NCBI RefSeq assembly: GCF_000427685.1
Contig: NZ_KE386573.1
Coordinates: forward strand, 1,472,938 to 1,536,937
Direction: 5' to 3'
Length of the DNA: 64,000 bases
From: Haloplanus natans DSM 17983
GTDB lineage: Archaea > Halobacteriota > Halobacteria > Halobacteriales > Haloferacaceae
Shown: positions 10,209-11,271 of the stretch, in pieces
How the letters are laid out: each line of letters begins with the position of its first letter
Numbering within the stretch: position 1 is the stretch's first letter
Program-made: the position numbers and the translations under genes
The notes under the pieces: model-generated
What the model saw: the letters and a program-made list of their open reading frames with translations, nothing else
What the model was told of the DNA's origin: nothing
The model's database searches: none

Positions 10209-10682
10209 TTAGGGTTCGGGCGGCGGCGGCCCGTCTCGTGACACCTCGTCGGTGCCCGTGAGGCGCCACAGCCCCACCGCGGCGATCGCTCCGATGCCGA
10301 GGGCGACAGCGAGGAACGTCCCGCCGGAGCCCACGTTGTCTACCGAGATGACGGAGAACCCGTAGTAGCGGCCACGATAGCGGACGTAGTCGTACGACGC
10401 GAGCCGTTCCGTGTCGGTGTCCGCTGGCAGACGAGCGGTTCTATCGTCGCCGTCGAACGCGCCGCCGTCACCGCCGTCGAACGCCCGTTGGAACGCGTCC
10501 TGCGTCGCTGGCAGGAGATCCTCGAACGCGACGACGCTCGCGCCCTCGGGGACCGAAGCCCGCGGCTCCTCGTCGAGGGAGACGGTGAGGCCGCCGGGCG
10601 ACGGGTCGATGGACCCGGATGCGACGAGGAGTCCGAGTCCCACCAGTAAGAGGGCGAGTTGGCCCACGGTGGCTCGGTTCAC
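10209..10682 (-). CDS. Uncharacterised membrane-anchored protein
   Basis: A 157-residue protein with an N-terminal hydrophobic helix (about residues 7-25), an acidic extracytoplasmic segment with ATQDAFQRAFDGG and DYVRYRGRYYGFSVISVD, a second helix (about 122-142) and a proline-rich tail. The layout, two helices around a small external domain, recurs in haloarchaea, but no function is known. Its upstream side borders the MITE-like element at 10734. Confidence 0.7.
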   Translation of the reverse strand: MNRATVGQLALLLVGLGLLVASGSIDPSPGGLTVSLDEEPRASVPEGASVVAFEDLLPATQDAFQRAFDGGDGGAFDGDDRTARLPADTDTERLASYDYVRYRGRYYGFSVISVDNVGSGGTFLAVALGIGAIAAVGLWRLTGTDEVSRDGPPPPEP

Positions 10683-10733
10683 GGCAGCGAAAGGACCACG
10701 GACGCGTATATGGTTTGTGACCGGTGCGTGAGG

Positions 10734-11050
10734 TAGTGTTCAGATAAGCTGGAGAAATTGGGACCACCTCGAAAGCCCCGCCTCGCTGGAGTCGGGGGCC
10801 TTGCTGCGCGCGCTCCCTCCGGTCGCGTGCTTGTGTCGGCCGCCTTCCTCCAGCGAGGCGCCCCTTTCAGTCCCACCCGAGTCGGCTGGCCAATCGGCCG
10901 CCGCCGGGCGGGACTGAAAGGGGCCGTCGTCTCGGCATACCCGGACGATGCAAGCACCGCAACGGAGTGAGGAGCGCAGCGGGTCCCGGGAGCCGAGACG
11001 ACGGGGGCTTTCGAGGTGTTCTCAATCCAAGCCCTCTAATCTGAACAGTA
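10734..11050. mobile_element. 317-bp MITE-like multi-hairpin element
   Basis: Terminal inverted repeats TAGTGTTCAGATAAG (10734-10748) and CTAATCTGAACAGTA (11036-11050) match at 13 of 15 positions. The element is flanked by a perfect 10-bp direct repeat CGGTGCGTGA (10722-10731 and 11052-11061), as expected of a target-site duplication. Inside is a nested set of stems: CCACCTCGAAAGCCCC (10764-10779) with its complement at 11004-11018; 10781-10791 with 10848-10858; 10861-10878 with 10906-10923; 10924-10936 with 10992-11004. It holds no open frame that resembles a protein. This is a non-autonomous element; its parent transposase is not in the window. Confidence 0.75.
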
Positions 11051-11145
11051 TCGGTGCGTGACGCCGACGCTCTCGGCGTGGCGGCGGAAGAATGGAGTCA
11101 CGGGGCGGGGCGGCCTGCGAGTCGACGACTGTCGCGCCGTCGCGG

Positions 11146-11250
11146 CTACTCCTCGACGTCGACTTCCACCGGCTCCTTGTCGCCGGACATGAGGACGTAG
11201 CCGATTGCGATCAGTGCGAGCACTAGGATGAACTTCGTCTTCCCTGACAT
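11146..11250 (-). CDS. 34-residue membrane peptide
   Basis: The frame reads MSGKTKFILVLALIAIGYVL then MSGDKEPVEVDVEE and stop: a lysine-containing start, one membrane helix and an acidic tail. Peptides of this MSGKTK...EPVEV type are familiar from haloarchaeal genomes, usually unannotated or hypothetical. It is upstream of nothing on its strand except the MITE-like element, and 21 nt from the pyrI stop. Function unknown. Confidence 0.6.
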   Translation of the reverse strand: MSGKTKFILVLALIAIGYVLMSGDKEPVEVDVEE

Positions 11251-11271
11251 ACCCTTTCGTTGGACCACCGG

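Follow-up and report, generated by a model that had tools for sequence, protein, structure and literature searches.

An element of 321 bp in Haloplanus natans DSM 17983 is very probably a MITE that is mobilised in trans by a DDE transposase of the IS6 family and inserted just upstream of promoters, with an inverted pair of domains as its cargo. It lies in the 64,000-nucleotide stretch of DNA analysed here (the window; contig NZ_KE386573.1, positions 1,472,938 to 1,536,937). Its ends, target duplications, further copies, IS6 match, empty locus in relatives, covarying interior and insertion position are all established by sequence comparison.

Limits of the element and its copies

The element and its borders, as judged from ends, stems and comparison of copies, are as follows.

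10732..11052, no strand: IS6-type MITE, 321 bp
10723..10731, no strand: target-site duplication on the left, GGTGCGTGA (family range 8-9 bp)
11053..11061, no strand: right target-site duplication GGTGCGTGA
10732..10748, plus strand: left terminal inverted repeat GGTAGTGTTCAGATAAG, the same ends being found on IS6-family elements
11036..11052, minus strand: right terminal inverted repeat, which reads GATACTGTTCAGATTAG in this orientation

The first-pass annotation had described a recently inserted, non-autonomous element with terminal inverted repeats, no ORF and a perfect 10-bp target duplication. The inverted repeats are indeed present (GGTAGTGTTCAGAT/GATACTGTTCAGAT in the window copy; 87% match between 10734-10748 and 11036-11050), and the ORF list holds no plausible transposase within the element, which is too short to encode one. 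Ten identical bases, CGGTGCGTGA, do occur at both 10722-10731 and 11052-11061, but they are not all duplicated target. Comparison with other copies places the limits of the MITE about 5 bp beyond TGTTCAG, mostly as GG.., and the target duplications are 8 bp long in most complete copies and 9 bp in a few, including the one in the window. For this reason the window copy is best read as an element spanning 10732-11052 with a 9-bp duplication, GGTGCGTGA, as against the canonical 8 bp, the tenth matching flank base being the terminal C of the element itself. The actual value of 8-9 bp is typical of IS6, and comparison across the family copies rules out a 10-bp duplication as the sign of another IS family.

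That the insertion is recent agrees with the distribution of the element. The genome of H. natans (3.8 Mb) contains about eight copies bounded by terminal inverted repeats (TIRs) and several fragments, and matches were found in 12 of 12 Haloplanus genomes searched, its own included. Full-length copies measure about 321 or 376 bp, and at least two genera besides Haloplanus have complete copies whose 8-bp duplications are perfect. Orthologues of the right flank were recovered from 11 congeners, none of which has the element at this locus; in one of them (L117) a contiguous, pre-insertion-like sequence runs through the insertion point. One further copy in the same genome (L094:589-652; C7:1459890) comprises only 64 bp, little beyond the two ends, within a perfect 9-bp flanking duplication, and represents a minimal mobile form or the product of a core deletion. 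Next to the window copy, an ORF for a membrane-like product of 34 aa, MSGKTKFILVLALIAIGYVLMSGDKEPVEVDVEE (11147-11251, minus strand), holds a position beside pyrI that is conserved in congeners. A pattern scan of genome contigs matched a single Halapricum contig. A viral origin of the element was rejected, there being no match to the pattern in IMG/VR and none in phage records.

Relationship to IS6-family elements

A search for insertion sequences with matching ends led to the IS6 family. The end pattern of the MITE recurs as pairs about 687 bp apart, which bound IS6-family elements of about 697 bp with 8-9-bp duplications; the ends GGTAGTGTTCAGAT are common to both types of element, and the transposase of the longer one scores 207.8 bits against NF033587 (cut-off 125) and also matches PF13610. 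Outside the ends of about 14-18 bp the two have no common sequence, and haloarchaeal MITEs usually resemble their IS partner at the ends only (PMC3119063). In H. natans itself the IS6 copies with MITE-matching ends are broken and the intact IS6 copies have different ends. By its ends, its 8-9-bp duplication and the absence of a transposase gene, the element qualifies as an IS6-family MITE, and from the shared ends we infer that an IS6 transposase mobilises it in trans.

Archaeal IS6 insertion sequences have been described with ends of the form GG...TGTT, an 8-bp duplication, a length of 700-750 bp and a DDE transposase, and Harmer and Hall argued that the archaeal members should form a separate family (PMC7986276, PMC6807381). 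No description of a target preference was found for them. The archaeal IS6 elements studied here also lie close to promoters, and the MITE has only their ends in common with them.

Insertion at a fixed distance from promoters

The gene next to the window copy and its promoter are arranged as follows.

10209..10682, minus strand: targeted gene; its 157-aa ORF starts with GTG at 49 bp from the end of the element and matches no Pfam family
10707..10711, minus strand: ATATA, a TATA-like box in the targeted promoter; it precedes the start codon by 25-29 bp

This arrangement, which the first-pass annotation does not mention, recurs across the family. Among 40 TIR-bounded copies from several genera, 23 have an ORF (ATG start, at least 60 codons) beginning 45-51 bp away, with the element on its upstream side, whereas 400 trials in which the insertion was moved at random within 150 bp gave 2.4 +- 1.5 such cases and never more than 7. 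The excess is seen both in Haloplanus (17/29 copies; control windows, mean 1.3 and maximum 5) and in the other genera (6/11; control mean 0.6), the control counts resting on ORF calls as opposed to mapped transcription starts. Start-codon distances among the 29 Haloplanus copies have their mode at 48 bp (nine copies), followed by 49 bp (four copies). The remaining 17 of the 40 copies include some next to genes with GTG starts or leaders and some that are old.

The base composition of the flanks points to the core promoter. An AT peak lies 20-25 bp from one end of the 29 Haloplanus copies, and when the flanks are aligned on the start codon, AT content peaks at -30 to -25 and reaches 69-84% at -30 to -26. 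In leaderless haloarchaeal genes the TATA box is located at about -30 to -26. The elements sit about 15 bp upstream of a TATA-like box. Their orientation relative to the promoter (12 to 7) gives no clear preference, and a bias of this kind was discarded.

Full-length IS6 copies show the same position, albeit more weakly (5/17 against 0.6 in the control), and one IS6 copy with other ends in the H. natans genome lies at 49 bp. In another haloarchaeon, a core repeat for which no link to IS6 ends was found gives no peak at 45-51 bp. The position therefore belongs to the IS6 ends and their transposase and not to the hairpin domain described below.

We propose that a haloarchaeal IS6-family DDE transposase acts in trans by binding the two MITE ends of about 17 bp, and that insertion would take place with a stagger of 8-9 bp, at a point about 15 bp upstream of the TATA box and about 48 bp before a start codon of mostly leaderless type. 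The cue may be promoters occupied by TBP and TFB, or a DNA feature that accompanies them. Transposition itself would be replicative and followed by resolution, as described in the IS6 literature (PMC7986276). Since the element lands where the gene retains its core promoter, insertion would presumably do little harm to the host. The cargo is an inverted pair of hairpin domains of about 112 bp, related to the end domain of a noncoding region that is conserved on haloarchaeal megaplasmids. We are doubtful of the more far-reaching version of this proposal, namely that IS6 transposases read the TBP-TFB complex and insert at its upstream edge, and that the MITE domain derives from an undescribed megaplasmid noncoding RNA.

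The interior is an inverted pair of hairpin domains

Between the ends lie two domains and a central loop.

10765..10877, minus strand: hairpin domain, subfamily II, which reads away from the centre
10878..10906, no strand: central loop between the inverted domains, whose ends pair across it (stem 10860-10879/10905-10924)
10907..11018, plus strand: hairpin domain, subfamily I, GGCGGGACTGAAAGGGGC..GGGGGCTTTCGAGGTG

The interior had been seen as a cloverleaf of four long stems, closer to a structured RNA than to a simple deleted transposon. The stems are real: the window element has three inner stems and one that encloses them, and its predicted RNA folding is far better than that of 100 dinucleotide shuffles on both strands (z of -11.0 and -12.2, no shuffle being as good). 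They are not, however, independent of each other. Matches in other genera span one or the other half of the element, in opposite orientation, and the element thus consists of an end, domain II on the minus strand, the loop, domain I on the plus strand and the second end. On these comparative grounds the four stems are explained by two inverted copies of one domain of about 112 bp with inverted ends GAAAG/CTTTC: the enclosing and the central stem arise from mutual pairing of the two domain ends, and the other two are the hairpins inside each domain. The interior does exceed a deleted transposon, as only the ends are common with IS6 and what lies between is a covarying, structured domain.

When 52 domains of MITEs, plasmids and single copies are aligned, the blocks GGGACTGAAAGGGGC, GCAAGCACCGCA and GGGGCTTTC hardly vary, whereas the stems show compensating changes. 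Over 26 stem pairs 96.7% of the cells are paired, both sides have changed in 18 of the 26, and the covariation score is 0.507 as compared to 0.139 +- 0.011 after shuffling and at most 0.112 after sliding. In the forward orientation of the domain there are 34 G-U pairs against 10 A-C pairs (a constant U-G column left out). This would suit a form that is single-stranded in one orientation, but is only a hint because alignment cells are not independent. Gene conversion between the arms could be another source of the compensating changes. Membership in a known RNA family was rejected: no Rfam covariance model reaches its gathering score in the window, the plasmid loci described below have no Rfam match either, and the weak microRNA scores are due to chance.

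Two observations concern the hairpins of individual copies. In one MITE (L045:1652-1763) the hairpin tip has the reverse orientation to its stem, which recombination between the stem arms would produce. Larger MITE copies (L003, L004, L046, L063, L067 and others) contain, at differing sites, 'twin hairpins' of about 55 bp with two stems of 8-12 bp and mostly 3-base loops; the 11.8 kb of element sequence yielded 19 calls, of which one is probably no real twin, and the 99 kb of flanks yielded none. Second-level insertion into hairpins and template switching are candidate readings of these.

Spread of the domain and a conserved plasmid region

An exact 15-base signature of the domain is found in 155 of 293 genomes and in 52 of the 87 genera of the order, with up to 67 occurrences per genome and none for the reversed control. 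Other families, too, have domain pairs, and in some of these a variant IS6-type end, TGTTTAGTT, is combined with 8-bp duplications. The core repeat at first seemed to favour one strand along the chromosome, but this was a listing artefact, the full list showing mixed strands. One genome (G214; L126-L155) holds 99 matches to the GGGACTGAAAGGGGC block, 57 of them exact. Most of these have another type of inner hairpin, whose loop resembles GTGCGGAGAG, and further downstream a second motif, GGGGGCTTTC; the domain has thus expanded separately in this genome.

In several families there are plasmids on which the domain forms the end of a conserved, highly structured noncoding region that is about 570 bp long and precedes a gene for an OB-fold 'DNA-binding protein / replication factor A'. 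Representative coordinates are these.

L156:2535-3272: conserved plasmid region
L157:2538-3143: conserved plasmid region
L158:2470-3374: conserved plasmid region
pNRC100 146465-147085 (L169:4001-4621): conserved plasmid region

The region was found in 166 haloarchaeal plasmid records, with a coverage of at least 80% in 41 of them; pNRC100 and pNG600 have it with a divergent terminal domain. Its covariation is similar on both strands, and the region may be a large RNA not yet described or a plasmid site that acts in cis. We found no equivalent of a megaplasmid noncoding RNA in the open-access literature.

Alternative explanations

But might the fixed distance to the gene merely reflect selection, insertions elsewhere having been harmful and lost? 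Selection surely contributes, for haloarchaeal genomes are gene-dense, and insertions within genes or between the TATA box and the start codon would be removed. However, selection would permit any site upstream of the TATA box and thus would not by itself create a peak 7 bp wide, yet the distances cluster at 45-51 bp around a mode represented by nine copies. Nor does it sit well with 23 of 40 copies at this position where random local insertion predicts 2.4, or with another haloarchaeon, in which a dispersed hairpin repeat of a different kind has no such peak. We consider it quite improbable that selection is the explanation, and hold to targeted insertion by the IS6 transposase.

The other alternatives concern the interior. 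The strong covariation with invariant blocks, the excess of G-U over A-C pairs in the forward orientation and the related domain within the conserved plasmid region would all suit an element whose main role is that of a structured noncoding RNA gene or a regulatory leader and which is only secondarily mobile. This is nevertheless improbable, as the copies are species-specific insertions, they belong to no Rfam family and the two domains are opposed, so that at most one can be in sense orientation in any transcript. Somewhat less remote, and compatible with transport by IS6 ends, is the idea that the domain is a self-spreading mobile hairpin of the SMR or PATE kind that was captured between them. 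The length of about 112 bp, the inverted GAAAG/CTTTC ends, the dispersed single copies in many genera, the exact occurrence of the signature as often as 67 times in one genome and, in another family, single-domain copies with IS6-like ends speak in its favour. Then again, many single copies appear to be what is left of pairs, and no clean empty site of a single domain lacking IS6 ends came to light; we therefore regard capture as possible and somewhat doubtful. The IS6-mobilised MITE remains the reading that we prefer for the element as a whole.

Comparison with known systems

Hairpin-rich, transposase-free elements that nest in each other are known from Haloquadratum walsbyi. Its PATEs, derived from IS200/IS605, have neither terminal inverted repeats nor target duplications, and its SMRs have no target duplication, SMR-A being about 110 bp long with inverted ends and inserting into palindromes (PMC3119063). 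The window element is likewise haloarchaeal, rich in hairpins, nesting and devoid of a transposase, but it differs from the SMRs by its target duplication and from the PATEs by this and its terminal inverted repeats, which rules out that it is a PATE. Its domain of about 112 bp, on the other hand, resembles SMR-A in length and inverted ends, as judged from the description of SMR-A.

Among IS6-type MITEs, MITEHarch3 is listed in ISfinder (PMC6807381), and two of 227 and 336 bp have been mentioned (PMC7986276). MITEHarch3 is a non-autonomous IS6-type element too, presumably from a halophilic archaeon by its name, and the recorded 336 bp is near the 321-342 bp of the window family. Compared by name and length only, the two may be the same family; neither an inverted hairpin domain nor promoter targeting is described for MITEHarch3 in these two reports.

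Insertion at a fixed distance upstream of promoters is known from bacteria, where TnGBS, ISLre2 and some ISKra4 elements with Mutator-like DDE transposases insert 15-17 bp upstream of the -35 box (PMC3942029). TnGBS-like elements and the window family have this property in common, but the former use sigma-A promoters and a Mutator-like (p-MULT) transposase and the latter archaeal TATA/TFB promoters and an IS6 enzyme (NF033587), with no clear preference for one orientation. The Ty1 and Ty3 retrotransposons are guided to Pol III genes by the TBP-containing promoter complex, and the protein contact has been demonstrated. They differ from the window family in being retrotransposons and in the polymerase concerned, and contact with a TBP complex is in our case only a supposition by analogy.

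Significance

The open-access literature yielded no report of promoter-targeted insertion for IS6 or for archaea, and a fixed insertion position at archaeal promoters would thus be, as far as we could find, the first for an IS6-type transposase and for archaea. The covarying hairpin domain, spread throughout the order, and the conserved plasmid region are candidates for undescribed structured RNA. The insertion positions of the MITEs mark core promoters and leaderless starts in haloarchaeal genomes that lack such annotation. Our findings also raise the question of whether transposases use general transcription factors as a landing guide where promoters resemble eukaryotic ones; if so, reading of TBP-TFB by IS6 transposases would be the archaeal counterpart of the targeting of TFIIIB by Ty1 and Ty3.
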